Of a stretch of 64,000 nt of DNA, positions 27,573 to 55,568 are shown piece by piece. Numbering within the stretch: the first letter of the stretch is position 1; each line of letters opens with the position of its first letter. The position numbers and the translations under genes were made by a program. The notes under the pieces were generated by a model that saw only the letters and a program-made list of their open reading frames with translations, was not told the DNA's origin and searched no databases. The DNA is from Paracamarosporium sp. OC-R06-R3 (lineage: Eukaryota; Ascomycota; Dothideomycetes; Pleosporales; Didymosphaeriaceae), in contig JACVRA010000161.1 in assembly GCA_019828545.1 (NCBI GenBank), positions 310,001-374,000 on the forward strand. The letters run 5' to 3'.

Positions 27573-28096
27573 GGCTGCTATCGTAACGTATATCGACTAA
27601 ATGCACGTGGAATGTTGGTAGCTTAATTGAGCATACACAAAGTCGGATAAGAACTTGAACAGAGGGCAACGTCGTTCGGTCAGAACCATCTGCCGATCGA
27701 TTATAAAAAGGGCGCAAGAGGTACTAAAATCCAGTCGCTGGCATCAATAGACCATGTCTAGCACTGCACCCTAACACTGCGGAAGAAGGGCGGTCCATCT
27801 GCTTGTAGATGACAAGCATAGAAAGCTAAATGTATACGAGCGATGCGAGCCATATCCGCATGAGTCATCAAAGTCGCGCAATGTGGTCGGCCTCTTCCCG
27901 ACTGTGTGAACATCGTGGTTATTCCCAGCTTCTCTTCCTTCGCTCTTCAGACGAAGCTATTGCCCTACGTGAAGGCTAATCTGCTCACTCCGGTCAATCT
28001 GGAAAATCGAAAGCGACGTGGACTCGCGGACTCAACGGCTATACCAGTACCTAAACAGGCAACTGCATCCGATCCACAACGACAGCACCCGCTACC
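27573..28096. other. Intergenic stretch
   Basis: 3' flank of the membrane protein gene and upstream region of the GrpB-GNAT gene; nothing else seen. Confidence 0.55.
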
Positions 28097-29155
28097 ATGT
28101 CCATCGAAGTCCACCCTTACAATCCCTCCTGGCCACTCCAATTCCTTGAGATAAAAGGCCGCTTAGAATCTCTGCTCACCGATGTACCATACAAGTCGAT
28201 TGAGCACGTTGGCAGCACCTCCGTGCCAGGCCTTGTAGCAAAGCCCATAATCGACATCGACATCATCGTCGCACGTGGAGATGTCCGTCCCGCCATCAAT
28301 GCCTTGGTGTCTAAAGGGAACTTCATCGACATGGGCGAGCTGGGCATCGTAGATCGGTGGTGCCTGAAGGACCCGATCCAGCAGCCCAAAAGGAACGTGT
28401 ATGTATGCGTAGACGGCGCCTTCCAGACACGCAATCATCTGGGACTGCGCGATACGCTCAGGCAAAATGCTGCGCTTCGCGACGAGTATGCGGCTGTGAA
28501 GCTGGATCTCGCGGCAAAGGGGACAAATATTGTGGATTATGTGGAGGCAAAGAGCGCTGTCGTGGAGAAGATCCTCGAGGCAGCTGGCTTGCTGACTGAA
28601 GAAGAGTTAGCTGCAATTGGAAAAGCGAACAAGAAGAACGAACGGTTTGGCGCGATCAAGACGGAGCGGCTAGTATTGAGAGAGTTTGTATGGGCAGATG
28701 ACGAGCCTTTCTTCGAACTCGAAAGCATAGAGGAAGTGGCGCGATACCAGACATGGCCGCCACGAACGAGAGAGCAGGCGCGTGAAGAAGTCGCGAAGAC
28801 TGTTCGAAATTCTTCGGCGGTTCCGCGGACGCATGTGGAGCTTGCTGTTGAGTACGAGGGAAAGTTCATCGGACGCGTAGGAGCGAATGTGAAGCGAGAA
28901 GAGAACCCGCATGCTGATCTATGGTTTTCGTTCTTGCCTAAGTTTCACGGTAGAGGGTTTGCCACAGAAGCCATGGGAGCGTTCATTCTGTTGCTTGGAA
29001 ACAGGTTGGAGCTAGAAATCGAATGCGATCCTAGGAACACTGGAAGTTGGAAGTTGGCAGAGAGGTTAGGCTTCGACAAGTTCGAGCTGACCGAAAGGGC
29101 TTTCGAATGCAAGGGCGAGTGGGTGGACAGCCTAGTGTATCGAAAGTACGTCTAA
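28097..29155 (+). CDS. GrpB/UPF0157 domain fused to GNAT acetyltransferase
   Basis: Intact single-exon frame of 352 residues, start ATG in the context GCTACCATGT. Residues 1-165 are a GrpB (UPF0157) domain: VHPYNPSWPLQFLEIKGRL, IEHVGSTSVPGLVAKPIIDI (the nucleotidyltransferase-like GS-x-S...D-x-D core) and RNVYVCVDGAFQTRNHLGLRD. Residues 185-350 are an N-acetyltransferase of the RimJ/RimL type: KTERLVLREF, LWFSFLPKFHGRGFATEAMG (acetyl-CoA loop) and NTGSWKLAERLGF. GrpB-like proteins are mainly bacterial and may be nucleotidyltransferases. The fusion suggests a two-step modification or a bacterial origin, which is inference. The substrate is unknown. Confidence 0.93.
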   Translation: MSIEVHPYNPSWPLQFLEIKGRLESLLTDVPYKSIEHVGSTSVPGLVAKPIIDIDIIVARGDVRPAINALVSKGNFIDMGELGIVDRWCLKDPIQQPKRNVYVCVDGAFQTRNHLGLRDTLRQNAALRDEYAAVKLDLAAKGTNIVDYVEAKSAVVEKILEAAGLLTEEELAAIGKANKKNERFGAIKTERLVLREFVWADDEPFFELESIEEVARYQTWPPRTREQAREEVAKTVRNSSAVPRTHVELAVEYEGKFIGRVGANVKREENPHADLWFSFLPKFHGRGFATEAMGAFILLLGNRLELEIECDPRNTGSWKLAERLGFDKFELTERAFECKGEWVDSLVYRKYV

Positions 29156-41016: not shown

Positions 41017-41167
41017 ACCGCCAGAGTGGGGGGGTTGCGAGCGTCGGCATGCTACCTCTCGAGGGTTGAGCGCCCGTTGCAAAGTCTGGTCGTTGAGCGC
41101 ATAGCTCCCATGGTTGCTTGCCTCCACTGAAAATTCGCACCTCACTTTTCGCGCGCATCAGGCCATC
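41017..41167. promoter_or_regulatory. Very short divergent promoter, forkhead/2OG oxygenase
   Basis: Only 151 bp separate the start codons of two divergent genes, so leaders or promoters probably overlap. Confidence 0.45.
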
Positions 41168-41950
41168 ATGGGGCCTAAAAAGAAGAACAACAACAAGAAT
41201 GAATTGCCGGCGCAGAAGTCCTCAGCTTCTACTGATATACCAAACTGGCCAGCCTTCGCACCGCTCATTCCCGAGTCTGATCTCTCGCTGCACGAAGCCC
41301 TTGCCGGCCAAATCGTGACGATACCAAACTTCTTCACCGCCACCCTGTCCAAGACTTACGTATCCTTCCTGTCATCCCTCCCGCTTGCCACGACGCCCGG
41401 CAAGCCCAAAAAGGGCGACGCCGTCCGCGTAAATGATCGCTTCCAGATTGACGACCCAGCATTTGCCGAAAGGCTCTGGAGCAGTACCTCCTTGAAGAGT
41501 CTCGTGCTTGGGACTGCGGAAAATGATGGACTTGGCATGAGCGAGGCACAACGGAGAGAGCTCTGGGGCGGCGAGGTCGTCGGCTTAAACCCGAATATCC
41601 GCATCTATCGGTATTCGAAAGGTCAATTCTTTGACCAGCACTACGATGACTCAAATAATGTCACTCTGCCTGGCAGTCCCTCCGTGCCTGCCCGGACTAC
41701 GTGGACTCTGTTGCTCTATCTTACTTCGCCTGCGACGGGGTGCATCGGAGGCGAGACAGTCTTCTATCCTGAACCTGAGATGGGAAAGAAGAAGAGCAAA
41801 GAACCGCCACCTGAACCTTTTGTTGCGGAGCTTGAAGTTGGATTGGCGCTATTGCATCGCCATGGTGCGCAGTGTATGTTGCATGAGGGCCGTGAGGTCT
41901 TGCAGGGCGAGAAATGGGTCATCCGGAGTGATCTCTGCGTCAAGCGCTGA
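41168..41950 (+). CDS. 2-oxoglutarate/Fe(II) dioxygenase, prolyl-4-hydroxylase-like
   Basis: Intact 260-residue frame without introns; ATG in the context ATCATGG. The double-stranded beta-helix core is visible: IRIYRYSKGQFFDQHYDD with iron ligands His158 and Asp160, then WTLLLYLTSPATGCIGGETVFY. The distal His239 sits in CMLHEGREV, and Arg253 in KWVIRSDL would bind 2-oxoglutarate. The N-terminus is Lys/Asn-rich (KKKNNNKNE), suggesting nuclear or cytosolic location, and there is no signal peptide. Substrate unknown; related fungal proteins are annotated as P4Hc-domain oxidoreductases. A basic loop (GKKKSKEPPPEP) interrupts the core. Confidence 0.9.
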   Translation: MGPKKKNNNKNELPAQKSSASTDIPNWPAFAPLIPESDLSLHEALAGQIVTIPNFFTATLSKTYVSFLSSLPLATTPGKPKKGDAVRVNDRFQIDDPAFAERLWSSTSLKSLVLGTAENDGLGMSEAQRRELWGGEVVGLNPNIRIYRYSKGQFFDQHYDDSNNVTLPGSPSVPARTTWTLLLYLTSPATGCIGGETVFYPEPEMGKKKSKEPPPEPFVAELEVGLALLHRHGAQCMLHEGREVLQGEKWVIRSDLCVKR

Positions 41951-44974: not shown

Positions 44975-45908
44975 CTAGAAAATCTCCTGGTCGTCATAAG
45001 CCCTCACACTCTCCAGCCTCTTCCGCACCTCCACAGGATCCCTGCACACATGCTTGCTGTCCCAACCATCACTCCCACCATTATGGTCGGGGAACGTGGT
45101 CTCCAAGCCCTCTAAGCTCATATCCGCGCTGCACAAGATGGCTTGTCGCATGTAGTCAAAGCAGTGGATCATGTGCCAGTGGTGGTCCTCGGGCATGGAT
45201 GTGATGTCCCAGAGAGAGTGGTTGGACGACATGGCGGAGTAGACTTCTACGATTGCGAACAGGCAGTGGAGTTGGTGAGTCATGGATGTTGTGAAGACAG
45301 TTTGGTTGGGCCATACGATTGGGGTGGGGAGGTCGTGGTAGTTTTCTGGGTCCGGGATGGATTGGAAGCCCATACCCTCTGTAGAGAAGGTTAGTTTATT
45401 GATGGGAAAATCAAAGGAAGAACGACGTACTAGGCATAAGCTCGTTCCACGCATGCAGGGTCTCGGGCTTGAAAAAATCTGCGGTGTTCATGGGCGCGAA
45501 CGTCTGGTTGATTTGGAACTTCGTGACTTGGGTAGGAACTGCGCCTTGTTAACGCCGAATCGATGGTTTCTTTAATGGCCACATACTGTGAGGTCCCCAT
45601 CCCGTCACGTCGCCTCCTACTTCCGACGCGCTGCTACTCCTCTTGCTTCCCAGACCAAGCTGTCGCAGCATCCCTTGATCTTTTGCCAGTAGCGCTACCA
45701 TCACGAGCTGCAGCCCAATAACCACAAACCACCGCGACGCTTTCAGTATGCCAACGCACGCATTTCTTTTCGACCTTCGCCCTCTGGTATATGTCTCTGT
45801 CGCCCACTGCTTCTCCATGCCAACCAATGATTCTACCTCAGTCGAAGAATCGTCATCATGGTGGTCCCCTGCAGGAACATTCTTATATTGATGCTGCGGC
45901 TCCATCAT
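44975..45908 (-). CDS. UstYa-like oxidase (DUF3328), copy A
   Basis: Three exons, 45587-45908, 45431-45538 and 44975-45378, give 277 residues with closed phases. The cytosolic N-terminus is followed by one transmembrane helix (WFVVIGLQLVMVALLA). The middle exon gives TKFQINQTFAPMNTADFFKP and TLHAWNELMP-KGMGF across the next junction, typical of the family. Both metal-binding motifs are intact: H-x2-H-C in MTHQLHCLF and HCFDYMRQAILC. UstYa-type proteins are copper-dependent oxidases that cyclise, chlorinate or otherwise oxidise peptides and small molecules in fungal RiPP and other secondary-metabolite pathways. It lies 7-8 kb from the repeat-precursor gene. Linkage to that pathway is inference. 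Confidence 0.9.
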
Positions 45909-50494: not shown

Positions 50495-52067
50495 TCATTG
50501 GAGCCCCAAAGCCGAGATATTGATTGATGGAGAAACCCCCAGAAGCAGGTCACTTAATACTTTTCCGCTCCCAAGGGAGAGTGTCACGCCGTCGCCACGG
50601 TGAGCTGTGTTCAAAAACAGCCCGCCTACAGTCTGTGAGCGATGTTGATCCGGCAACTCTAATTGGACCTGAGTGGGTTTGTTTTGAATATCTGGCCGTG
50701 CTGAGTTACAAATACCAAGGGAATTCCAGTCCACTTTGGTGATGATTGGGTGGTCAGGTGTAGCAAGCGGTCGATAACACCTGCCTGCGTTATAAACTTC
50801 AAGCTCCTTTTCTGGATCTACATCCAAATACTGTTTAGCAAGGTTGGCCATAGCCTGTATTTCTGATGGCTGTGCCTTCACCGACTCTGCGAACTCTGGA
50901 AGTTCCTCGGGAATTGCTCCCCATCCTCCTACATATAGTTCGCCTCCCAAAAAGCTGGTAATGTCTATACCTTTACCCTCTGGGGCATCGTTTTGCAGAA
51001 AGACTTGCTCACTACCTTTTTCATCATGGGAAGTGTGACGGCAGGAGCTTTGGTGCACGGGCCTTTGGTGCACGTGCTTACGTGTTTGCCTAGTAGTTAG
51101 CGTATATAGGCCACACAGCTCAGTTGAGAGCTCGACAGTTGATACACCATCTTCTGACCCTCTTTTTGATCACCCTCTGCGTGATCTCACAGGAAGGATC
51201 CCAATTTGGCGTACGTACCCGGAAATGGTTGCTTGCTGAAGCTGTGGAATTCATAGGCAGTTTTACGGTCGCGTGCGGGAAGAGCATTGAGAATACGCGA
51301 GGTGACCAAGGCCCAGCAGCGATCACGAGACTACGGCATGGGACGGTCCTAGTGTTGTTCCCATTTTCTTCAACCTGGATGTTGGAGAAGTGCTGTCTGT
51401 TCCCTTCGGCTCTGATAGATATTGCCCTCGCGTTGAAGATGAAATTTACCCCTAATCTCACACACTCGTCGTATATGAACTTGCAGAATTGTGCAGGGTC
51501 ACTTGGCTATTAGCATGCATCAAAGCTTAGTAGGTAGAGGTCATACAGATGTGCAGCATGCTGAGGTCCTGCCATCAACTGTACCGTCCAGCTGCTCTTC
51601 GGCCGTATCCAATTTGGAAGTGCAGATAAGGGCTTAATGACTAGAGGCCCTGGTGCCCAGTCGTTAGAGGGCTCGAGCACTCCTGTGAAATCTGCTGGCG
51701 TGATTCGATAAATGGTCGAACTGCTGAAGCCAAAAGTTCCAGCGCCACTTTGGGTGGCCATTTCCAGCAACAGATTATACGACAGGAGGCCCAGATCTGC
51801 AGTCTCGGAACCAAATCCGAAGTCCCCAAGTCCGCCAGTCGCTTGACCGGAGGCAGCAGGGCTGATGGTCGCTGCCGGCTCCACGACAACGATCCTCGGC
51901 ATTAAATCCTTAGAGGAAGCCTGATCGGATGCCTCTAGAGCGAGTGCGAGCTGGTATGCTGTAGTCAGACCAATTACGCCGGCGCCCAGGATGACAGTTT
52001 CGGTTGAGGCCAGATCATCTTTGTGGATCGCTGGGATCTGCTTTGGGGTAGACCAAAACGCACCCAT
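50495..52067 (-). CDS. FAD-dependent oxidoreductase (D-amino-acid-oxidase/DadA fold)
   Basis: Four exons, 51547-52067, 51191-51501, 50716-51015 and 50495-50625, close in phase and give 420 residues. The dinucleotide motif is VILGAGVIGLTTAYQLA near residue 25. Other DAO-fold segments are PAASGQATGGLGDFGFG, RSLVIAAGPWSPRVF, HFRVRTPNWDPS, DITSFLGGELYVGGWGA, NAGRCYRPLATPDHPIITKV and the final GLFLNTAHRGDGVTLSLGSGKV. Such enzymes oxidise amines or amino acids with oxygen. Intron 2 (51016-51190) has an AAG acceptor and a 15-bp direct repeat (around 51053-51082), so that junction is the least certain. An ATG at 52172 would add a hydrophobic leader. It faces the same way as the precursor gene and could be a tailoring enzyme; that is inference. 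Confidence 0.85.
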
Positions 52068-53069
52068 AGTGCATGAGAAAGAGAGCCAAGGGAAGTATAA
52101 GGCAGAGAGATGGAGAAGAGAGATTGCGATCAACAGTGTACTTTTACTCGATTTAAATGGGACACTGCGCAAACGGAAACGAGTGCCAGCAAGTCAAGGC
52201 AACACGTCGGGCCAACCTCCTACTCAACGGTGAGACCGTCGCCACGTATATCATCAGTCAAGCTACACTTCCTCGCCCTTTGTTTGATATTTGATTGTGG
52301 TATGTTGTGACCGTATTGGTGATTACACCGTTTTGAACAAACACTGTATATCGTGCATTCGTCACCTCACGCCTTTCAATGTGGCAGACCTAGTGCGCTC
52401 GCAGAGTCTAACATGATACTATCATCCACTCGCCTAAGCTTATACATGTATTGCTCCTGATCGTGCTCCTCGAGGAGTTTAGGTACCTTACTAAAAAGAC
52501 TGGTAATTAATCAAAAGGATTAGAGCGATAAACTGGAAGAAAGAGCACGTGGGTATGTCAAAACTGGATTGTCGGGTCGGTTGCCTTCCGGGCAGCGCAT
52601 AGAGGACGTCATAAAAAGCCTGATTTTTTTGGGAGTAGGTGTCGCCACCCGTAGTTCGACAACTTTCCTAAGCAATACGTTCATATCGTTGCAGCAATAT
52701 TTATCGTTATCATGCATCTGGGTATATAGCGCAAAGAGTTAGTGATAGGGGTTTGGCATGTATGGCTATAGCGGAGGTTTTGATGTCGTAGCTGGGAGCT
52801 TGAAGGAGTTGTCTTCGAGATGTCGTGCAAATATATAAATCTTTTATGCATCTACATATAAGTCGATCAAGTTCAGACAATTCAGTCTAATTTTGCCGTC
52901 TTCCGCTGTTGATTGTTGTAAGTAGCCAGGTAAAGTAAGAACAACAACAAGGCTGTATTGCTATCTGCAGAAAGGAGTGTGNNCCTTATAGAAACTATGT
53001 GACGTAGTTACAATTGTCATTGCAGCATCCTTGGTCACCGTGAAACTTTCTATCCCTGATGATTTTCCC
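52068..53069. other. Intergenic stretch with two undetermined bases
   Basis: No supportable gene. Two N bases at 52982-52983 mark a sequence uncertainty close to the 3' end of the repeat-precursor gene. AT-rich in 52700-52960. Confidence 0.6.
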
Positions 53070-53738
53070 CTACTGAATCAACCCTCGATGCGTTACGTTG
53101 TCCAGTCTGCTATGTTTCGATCGCTTAGATGATCCCTCGTCATCCCCGTCGTTGTCAAATTCCTTCGCCGCCATCATCGCGAGCGGATCACCGCCTGCTT
53201 CTACGACTTCATCAGGAGAACTTTCCCCCTCCTTACTCCACATCATAGCAAGAGGATCGTCCTCTTGGGTGTCGACCTCTTTCAGCCACATCATGGCTAA
53301 GGGGTCGTCGTCCTTGGATACATCGGCCTTTGTGAACATCATGGCTAGCGGGTCATCATTGGTGTCGTAGTTATTTTTTCTGTTTCTTCCAGTACTTCGC
53401 TTGTCGGTGCTCGGTAGGGTTTCGATTCCAGCACGAAACATCATGGCCAGCGGGTCGGAGGAGGCATCATCTGAAGGTGAGGAATCAGGGGGGTATTCGG
53501 CACTGTTCCAGGACATCATGGCCAGAGGGTCGTCTTCCTCATCAGTCGCTTCGTAATCCGGTGGTAGATCCGACTTGCCAATCCACATCAAGGCCAGGGG
53601 GTCATTATCTTTTACGGCATCTTGTGTGGTAACCTGCGCATGCTCAACTGGGATAGGCGCACCGTGGACTTTGGTTTCGAACAACAAGAGCAGAACAGGG
53701 CTTATCAAGAATGTGCGCATGATTCCAAGAAAGATCAT
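53070..53738 (-). CDS. Repeat-bearing secretory preproprotein, candidate RiPP precursor
   Basis: Intact single-exon frame, 222 residues from the ATG at 53738 (an in-frame ATG at 53720 also suits; upstream codons to 53840 look like leader). Residues 1-26 form a signal peptide (MIFLGIMRTFLISPVLLLLF) ending in VHG before APIP. Seven motif copies start at residues 46, 70, 95, 129, 145, 161 and 184: one DPLALM and six DPLAMM. The next residue is W, S (then W), F, F, W, W and A. A Lys two residues on is frequent. Spacers are acidic and of varied length (16-34 residues from repeat to repeat). Dibasic KR occurs at 113-114 and 205-206. The build resembles precursors of ustiloxin-, phomopsin- or victorin-type RiPPs, whose repeated cores are cut out and cyclised by UstYa-type oxidases. 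One is encoded next door. A secreted repeat effector or Kex2-processed peptide is the alternative. Confidence 0.75.
   Translation of the reverse strand: MIFLGIMRTFLISPVLLLLFETKVHGAPIPVEHAQVTTQDAVKDNDPLALMWIGKSDLPPDYEATDEEDDPLAMMSWNSAEYPPDSSPSDDASSDPLAMMFRAGIETLPSTDKRSTGRNRKNNYDTNDDPLAMMFTKADVSKDDDPLAMMWLKEVDTQEDDPLAMMWSKEGESSPDEVVEAGGDPLAMMAAKEFDNDGDDEGSSKRSKHSRLDNVTHRGLIQ
53157..53614 (-). repeat. Seven-copy protein repeat DPLAMM, degenerate at DNA level
   Basis: The 18-nt core coding DPLAMM recurs seven times within the precursor gene. Pro codons are CCC, CCT, CCG, CCG, CCC, CCT and CCG. Leu codons are CTG, CTG, CTG, CTA, TTA, CTT and CTC. Ala codons are mostly GCC, then GCT and GCG. Protein sequence is kept while silent sites vary. 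Confidence 0.9.
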
Positions 53739-54403: not shown

Positions 54404-55568
54404 ATGTTCGCATCTGAAAAATCGGCAGCTCGTGCCTCAACGCGCGATGGCATCTCCTATTCACCACTGGTCGAAGAGAGCACTGGGGATCCTCCAAGAC
54501 GCCATGACGGGAGACTTCCTCTATACCTTTTCCTTGAAGCAATAATCCTCTTTGGACTTTTGGGTGCTTATCTCGCATTCACCCGAGGGACACTGTCAAG
54601 CACACCTGGACTTGGCTCAGATGACTGTAAGCATCTTTTCCCACTATCTTTCTCGGGTTGAACACCTCTAGAATATCGCCGGTCAAGTATGGTATTTAAT
54701 CTATTTTTCTAGTTTCCGACCTCGCAACCTATAACACGACCGAATTCTTCACCGAGAACAATGACATGATGCGCAAAACCGCTGAAGCTGAGAGATTTTG
54801 GACAGGTCTACTGCAGAGTAAGTGGTTGATCTCTTTGCTCTCAAAGGAGAATAAGGGAGTTAATTGCGACCAGCCGACGGCATAGTCTCCGTCCCCACAC
54901 AATGGGCGCTCGACCAAGGCTTCGCTTCTTCGCTTGAGAACCCCGATCGACTAGGCCACAGTGTCTATCAGGTGGATATGTACCACTCATTGCATTGTCT
55001 GGTACGTATTGTCTCCCTGTGAAGCCTCATACATATCACGCCTTGCTGTCACCTTCCCATGCCTCCAAAGTCTCCTTTCCCCATACTTGCCTCGAACAAG
55101 CAAGACTAGGCGTTCGGGTCACGAAGATCTCAACCATAAGCTCAAGCCATAAGTATTTGGATCTTTGAAAAATGCTTCCTAGGGCAACTCGAGCTATATT
55201 AAATGGTTGTAGCTCAGGCTCGAAATCGGATAGACAAAAGCCACACTCATAGAAGTCTTGGGCTAACGTGACTGTAGCATCACATCCGCCTCCGCCTCGT
55301 CTCCAAGGTACCTCTGAGCAAGTGGCCGAGAGACGACAAGCACAGTTTGCACTGCATCAACTACATCCGCCAGCAAATCATGTGCCATGCAGACATCACG
55401 TTGGGTGGTACGGATGATGTGCTGCATTACGCGAGAAATGAGGGACATCAGTGTAGGGATTATAAGGCCGTAGTGAGTTGGACTCAGAGACATGAGTGGA
55501 AGGGACATGCGAGATGGATTAAAAAGATGTATGGATATATTGCTGGAGCGGAGAGTCTAGCTACTTGA
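54404..55568 (+). CDS. UstYa-like oxidase (DUF3328), copy B
   Basis: Four exons, 54404-54626, 54713-54817, 54874-55001 and 55278-55568, close in phase and give 248 residues. A cytosolic head (SYSPLVEE) precedes a transmembrane helix at about 38-59 (LPLYLFLEAIILFGLLGAYL). Then FSDLATYNTTEFFTENND and VPTQWALDQGF follow. The two family motifs are HSLHC at residues 147-151 and HCINYIRQQIMC at 177-188. The second half contains another HSLHC (174-178) overlapping the second motif, which is unusual. The third intron is long (276 nt). UstYa proteins oxidatively cyclise RiPP cores or modify other metabolites. The divergent pairing with the repeat precursor suggests they act in one pathway. Confidence 0.9.

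Follow-up and report, generated by a model that had tools for sequence, protein, structure and literature searches.

A single-exon gene in the stretch of Paracamarosporium sp. OC-R06-R3 DNA analysed here (64,000 nucleotides, hereafter the window) looks, with a confidence that lies only a little beyond the halfway mark, like the precursor of a UstYa-linked multi-core RiPP, with most cores freed by some route other than Kex2. Because a repeat precursor here adjoins the gene of a peptide-modifying enzyme, the gene probably makes a modified peptide. The initial annotation had already read the frame as a RiPP precursor, and the repeats, the UstYa neighbour, a relative of the precursor and the insufficiency of Kex2 all speak for that reading; we infer the oxidation, the cleavage enzymes and sites, and the product. 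Three points lower our confidence somewhat: the chain is only probably disordered, the control set is small, and a published survey sees no enrichment of Trp in UstYa-linked repeats. The precursor and its core copies are located as follows.

53070..53738, (-) strand: precursor coding sequence, single exon, 222 aa, seven DPLA[ML]M copies
53586..53603, (-) strand: core copy 1, DPLALM, then W
53514..53531, (-) strand: core copy 2, DPLAMM, then SW
53439..53456, (-) strand: core copy 3, DPLAMM, then F
53337..53354, (-) strand: core copy 4, DPLAMM, then FTK
53289..53306, (-) strand: core copy 5, DPLAMM, then WLK
53241..53258, (-) strand: core copy 6, DPLAMM, then WSK
53172..53189, (-) strand: core copy 7, DPLAMM, then AAK

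The signal peptide, six DPLAMM copies and one DPLALM copy described in the initial annotation were recovered at 53070-53738, with the same count and a signal-peptide-like start. By hydropathy and by eye the N-terminus has a hydrophobic stretch, TFLISPVLLLLF, followed by VHG-APIP, and on this judgement the precursor carries the ER signal peptide expected of Kex2-processed repeat proteins (KEPs). An alternative ATG at 53720 gives a protein of 216 aa. The precursor matches no Pfam family, contains no Cys and is acidic, with 45 Asp and Glu against 20 Lys and Arg; judging from this acidic, Cys-free and repeat-rich make-up, the chain is probably disordered. A single-sequence AlphaFold model has a pLDDT of 50, which in a run without an alignment gives no reading on disorder because P0001, a UstYa relative that is surely folded, scored 44 when run alike.

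An artefact or chance origin of the repeats is ruled out by shuffling and by a relative, P0003, described below. The best family of six-mers, with one mismatch allowed, has seven copies, where the KEP definition asks for at least three repeats, compared with three or fewer in 1000 shuffles of the mature sequence. Between copies the silent sites are near saturation (pS 0.77 versus pN 0.026 over 21 pairs, pN/pS about 0.03), and across copies Asp is written with two codon types, Pro with three, Leu with five and Ala with three. Purifying selection acts on the six motif residues, and the early observation that silent positions vary while the amino acids do not is borne out. Recent DNA duplication, which had been dismissed as the source of the motif identity, is ruled out by the pS value for the array as a whole but is retained for copies 4, 5 and 6, which lie exactly 48 nt apart, so that this part of the array looks like a tandem duplication. 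Strong silent divergence is not peculiar to the DPLAMM gene, since pS between copies is 0.72-1.00 in five of eight Kex2-type precursors of the same genome (0.32-0.46 in the other three).

Outside the six residues there are tendencies only, namely an aromatic residue adjoining the motif, a Lys three places on and acidic surroundings. The residues that follow copies 1-7 are W, S(W), F, F, W, W and A, which agrees with the annotated five Trp or Phe and one Ser-Trp and leaves two of the seven copies with no aromatic directly after the motif. Spacers of 10-28 aa separate the copies and are mostly acidic and unconserved, again as first described. The DPLAMM codon pattern has six matches in the 43 Mb genome, all of them in the precursor (one match for the reversed control), and no second DPLAMM-type precursor was found in the fungus's own genome, where the only other protein match, C251 with E 3.3, was dismissed.

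Dibasic sites are scarce in the precursor, with KR at residues 113 and 205, RK at 120 and no KK; the initial annotation had the KR count right but left the RK uncounted. Only one of the six intervals between window copies contains a dibasic site. The sites (KR, RR, KK, RK) that lie between the repeats of KEPs, and by which dikaritin cores are processed, are thus lacking from five of six intervals, and cutting at KR or RR yields three fragments. Kex2 therefore cannot part most copies, and release would need cleavage beyond KR, as had been proposed. The eight other UstYa-linked precursors of the genome share repeated short cores and a nearby UstYa gene with the window precursor but, unlike it, have a dibasic site in 28 of 31 intervals (each interval counted together with the final two residues of the copy before it), against one of ten over the window protein, P0003 and P0004 together. 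The comparison of 28/31 with 1/6 gives a Fisher P of 7e-4, on intervals that within one protein are not independent. A Lys is the third residue after the motif in four of seven window copies, three of three in P0003 and none of three in P0004 (7/13 overall), so that a Lys at this place marks P0003 and just over half of the window copies but neither the other three nor P0004.

The window contains two UstYa genes.

54404..55568, (+) strand: UstYa (DUF3328) gene, PF11807 E 2.3e-24, 248 aa, four-exon model
44975..45908, (-) strand: second UstYa gene, tentative three-exon model, 279 aa, PF11807 E 1.1e-19

The UstYa-type link that the initial annotation had anticipated is present as the divergent neighbour of the precursor, with 666 bp between the coding ends. 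Its exons, placed by eye from splice signals at 54404-54626, 54713-54817, 54874-55001 and 55278-55568, give a model with one apparent membrane span and two HSLHC motifs. Two His/Cys motifs define the UstYa family, and the neighbour combines them with a PF11807 score of 86.9 bits, where the cut-off is 25. If the precursor gene was chosen irrespective of what lies beside it, there is a chance of about 0.2% that one of the ~46 UstYa loci in 43 Mb falls this close (within 0.7 kb). The second UstYa gene is ~7 kb from the precursor and its membership in the same pathway is uncertain; a scan of window frames of up to 900 aa found no repeat ORF beside it (44975-45908). The 540 kb contig that holds the window has five UstYa loci, at ~55.7, 355, 365, 404.6 and 499.7 kb, two of which are in the window.

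A search with the whole precursor considered 1106 candidates, none of them at E <= 1. This is not decisive because fungal gene calling looks poor in the searched protein database, as seen from P0002, one of two relatives (with P0001) returned by the UstYa query. P0002 is a wrongly called fragment that shares 93% identity with a single UstYa exon; it lies on contigs up to 62.6 kb, and the match suggests that a close relative of the source fungus is in the database. A second search, with words and scores taken from precursor residues 125-194, picked up P0003 (E 6.7e-13) and P0004 (E 6.2). P0003 (137 aa, on contigs of up to 53.7 kb) resembles the window precursor in its own signal peptide (followed by SPVP), its DPLAMM-aromatic-x-Lys units (DPLAMMWTK, DPLAMMYFK and DPLAMMWWK), its acidic, otherwise different spacers and its intervals without a dibasic site; it differs in having three copies, with Y after the motif in one of them, and several dibasic sites ahead of the first copy. 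The motif-aromatic unit, annotated from the window as conserved, accordingly recurs in all three P0003 copies within other spacers. P0004 has three DPLAMM in ~35-residue units that are repeated whole, with no predicted signal peptide, and is at best a tentative relative because at E 6.2 and with the whole unit repeated the shared six-mer could be chance. Taken together, the three proteins have 13 copies, of which 12 carry the exact motif and 10 have an aromatic as the next residue, where aromatics make up 6.6% of the residues overall (binomial P 4e-10; 8/10 without P0004, P 1e-8), P values that are too small because the copies are not independent. UstYa linkage of a DPLAMM precursor is seen in one genome. 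A DDPLAMMW codon scan of viral and prokaryote contigs gave 0 matches, which says little about fungi, and solved structures contained no UstYa relative; two tektin matches (E 0.02 and 0.05) were taken as chance.

Repeat precursors are common beside the UstYa genes of this genome (337 contigs, 43.1 Mb in total, fungal by a gene content that includes UstYa, HET and Fung_rhodopsin), in keeping with the context proposed for the window gene. PF11807 gave 75 exon matches in 48 clusters, of which 47 were scanned, two of them in the window; C284, below the cut-off, was left out. The scan looked for reading frames in which a six-mer occurs three or more times, with one mismatch allowed, and did not require Kex2 sites. 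Flanks of mostly 1-2 kb were covered; at C88, C111, C169 and C175 one flank fell short of 1 kb, and at C148 the second of the UstYa genes (25.6-26.3 kb) lay beyond the stretch scanned. Eight of the 46 other UstYa neighbourhoods have a repeat precursor.

L007 (L007/L026), 113-637: Kex2-type precursor
L009, 61-423: Kex2-type precursor
L010, 1-267: Kex2-type precursor
L016, 3472-3783: Kex2-type precursor
L042, 429-1043: Kex2-type precursor
L045, 2981-3193: Kex2-type precursor
L050, 652-1113: Kex2-type precursor
L056, 3-521: Kex2-type precursor

Each of these is itself a candidate RiPP precursor, and together they serve as internal controls; their repeats include QWYDLTYID, TNFEIDTILDVNR, QYHGKNVVK, DSDDIWLWK, NWYTDSASGV and EAAPAYVWAS. 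A UstYa match lies 0.35-2.6 kb from each, measured from HMM match to reading frame with loci read in + orientation (checked on L001). For seven of the eight, one or more UstYa genes are divergent from the precursor, 0.87-2.6 kb away, and the eighth has one in tandem at 0.63 kb. The closest-scoring paralogue of the window UstYa (C163:3258-3635, E 3.5e-14, 33% identity) stands 2.6 kb from the precursor at L056. No repeat precursor was found in 15 control stretches of 4 kb, which were placed at round coordinates and not at random; matches at L063 (low complexity) and L068 (ankyrin-like) were not counted. The contrast is therefore eight precursors in ~174 kb of UstYa stretches against none in 60 kb, where ~2.8 would be expected, and the control is weak because at the UstYa-stretch rate zero in 60 kb arises ~6% of the time. 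Antisense or other-frame readings of arrays were dropped at L007, L010, L016, L026, L042, L045, L046 and L056, as were weak matches at L033 (VVDRPR) and L046 (DEHTY) that were not clearly precursors. A looser repeat scan agreed for the loci covered. At L046 (4161-4364) a short frame near the UstYa locus has three Cys-containing HTY-type repeats and is a possible gene.

In layout the window precursor is dikaritin-like, but it departs from dikaritins in Kex2 processing and in Tyr. The dikaritins (ustiloxin, phomopsin and asperipin-2a, with victorin similar) pair a secreted precursor of several cores with an adjacent DUF3328/UstYa gene (PMC9233826 and PMC7329392). The window has such a gene at 54404-55568 and a multi-core precursor whose secretion is judged by signal-peptide appearance only. 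Dikaritin precursors are cut by Kex2 and cyclised via Tyr (Phe in victorin), whereas the window copies are mostly without dibasic separators, the aromatic is mainly Trp or Phe and Tyr follows none of the seven motifs. No peptidase, transporter, methyltransferase or tyrosinase was found among the 20 window translations scanned with Pfam. Ustiloxins and phomopsins owe their Tyr-Ile cross-link to UstYa homologues, and in victorin the link that closes the ring joins Phe and Leu (PMC9233826, in passages that do not name the victorin enzyme).

With KEPs the precursor shares a signal peptide, at least three repeats and the DUF3328 neighbour that these sometimes have (PMC7329392, PMC6339444), and the Umemura survey finds DUF3328 genes more often directly beside the repeat-precursor gene than at any other position (PMC7329392). 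The Umemura rule (PMC7329392) asks for at least three repeats of at least eight residues between Kex2 sites. The Le Marquer rule requires four or more fragments from KR/RR cutting, or four by KK (PMC6339444), and the window precursor gives three by KR/RR. From reading the rules, rather than from running the code, we judge that both survey pipelines would skip it. Le Marquer notes Kex2 sites in nearly every UstYa-linked precursor of Aspergillus (PMC6339444), a wording by which exceptions may already have been seen. The DPLAMM motif has no record in the literature searched, where most subscription papers fall outside, and searches for PLAMMW, PLAMMF and DPLAM there returned by title no fungal peptide.

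If the favoured reading is right, the signal peptide would take the acidic chain into the secretory pathway and a membrane-anchored UstYa oxidase would act on the repeated DPLAMM-aromatic unit. The simplest such action would be to oxidise the Trp or Phe (Tyr in one P0003 copy) or cross-link it to an aliphatic or Met side chain close by, an aromatic beside invariant Pro-Leu-Ala and Met being a natural candidate for oxidation. Most units would then be freed by a non-Kex2 protease. Yapsin-like proteases cut after a single Lys, and a yapsin-type cut after the Lys two past the aromatic could leave units such as EVDTQEDDPLAMMWSK. Exopeptidases might then trim the acidic spacer to the Asp-Pro start, where the X-Pro bond would resist ordinary aminopeptidases. 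UstYa action on Trp is countered by the Umemura survey, which finds Tyr enriched in DUF3328-linked repeats (65.6% versus 38.2%) but not Trp (20.5% versus 24.5%) (PMC7329392).

The precursor could also be a secreted repeat protein that stays intact, a multivalent wall or effector protein with DPLAMM-aromatic as its binding motif and a UstYa gene that is coincidental or acts elsewhere. We regard this as unlikely, though it deserves serious consideration: nine of ten intervals over the three proteins are without a dibasic site, an acidic chain with spaced hydrophobic motifs would be expected of many binding-motif proteins, and six residues under strong selection between free spacers fit a binding motif as well as a core. 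However, the adjacency of UstYa would be a chance event at the ~0.2% level, if the gene is taken as picked regardless of its neighbours, and the divergent layout is common to seven of the eight UstYa-linked repeat precursors. It seems improbable that DPLAMM is instead a recognition tag for an enzyme and that the product is the variable W/F/Y-x-K stretch and beyond, with several peptides per gene. Bacterial cyanobactin precursors do combine constant recognition sequences with variable cores, and DPLAMM is nearly invariant (exact in 12/13 copies), whereas the residues after it differ from copy to copy and from protein to protein; but these variable stretches share little beyond the aromatic and the Lys, and in most UstYa-linked precursors of the genome a conserved, core-like unit lies between the dibasic sites.

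We give similarly little credence to unmodified linear peptides, signalling or pheromone-like, that would be freed by a non-Kex2 protease. The precursor resembles no mating pheromone that we know of, and the UstYa neighbour argues against one. In the Umemura survey 22% of KEPs have a DUF3328 neighbour and 78% do not, so repeat precursors often act without UstYa; in the window, however, UstYa is the divergent neighbour, and precursors annotated as mating factor or pheromone are, all but three, without a DUF3328 neighbour (PMC7329392).

Should the UstYa-linked precursor that we prefer prove to be conserved without Kex2 sites, a second release route would be indicated, and part of the UstYa peptide world would be invisible to Kex2-site mining of the kind used in the two surveys. 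It also raises the question of how UstYa acts on a Met-rich core ending in Trp or Phe. That DPLAMM-aromatic precursors form a class of their own, multi-core, UstYa-modified, freed by a non-Kex2 route, occurring in several fungi and overlooked by the surveys because these ask for dibasic sites, is a tentative proposal that we put forward with more doubt than conviction.

One further gene of the window may belong to the pathway.

50495..52172, (-) strand: FAD-dependent oxidoreductase (DAO) in pieces, PF01266 on two ORF pieces, E 7e-8 and 5e-8

It is on the precursor's strand, downstream of the precursor, and is a possible pathway member. Two N bases at 52982-52983, between the precursor and the DAO gene, are probably an assembly join or unresolved bases. 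A 2OG-Fe(II) oxygenase is found 11 kb off, at 41105-41947, and the further neighbours scanned look unrelated (GH114, DUF6594, Fung_rhodopsin and an F-box-like match below the cut-off). At 28055-29152 of the window, GrpB and GNAT acetyltransferase domains occur in one frame.
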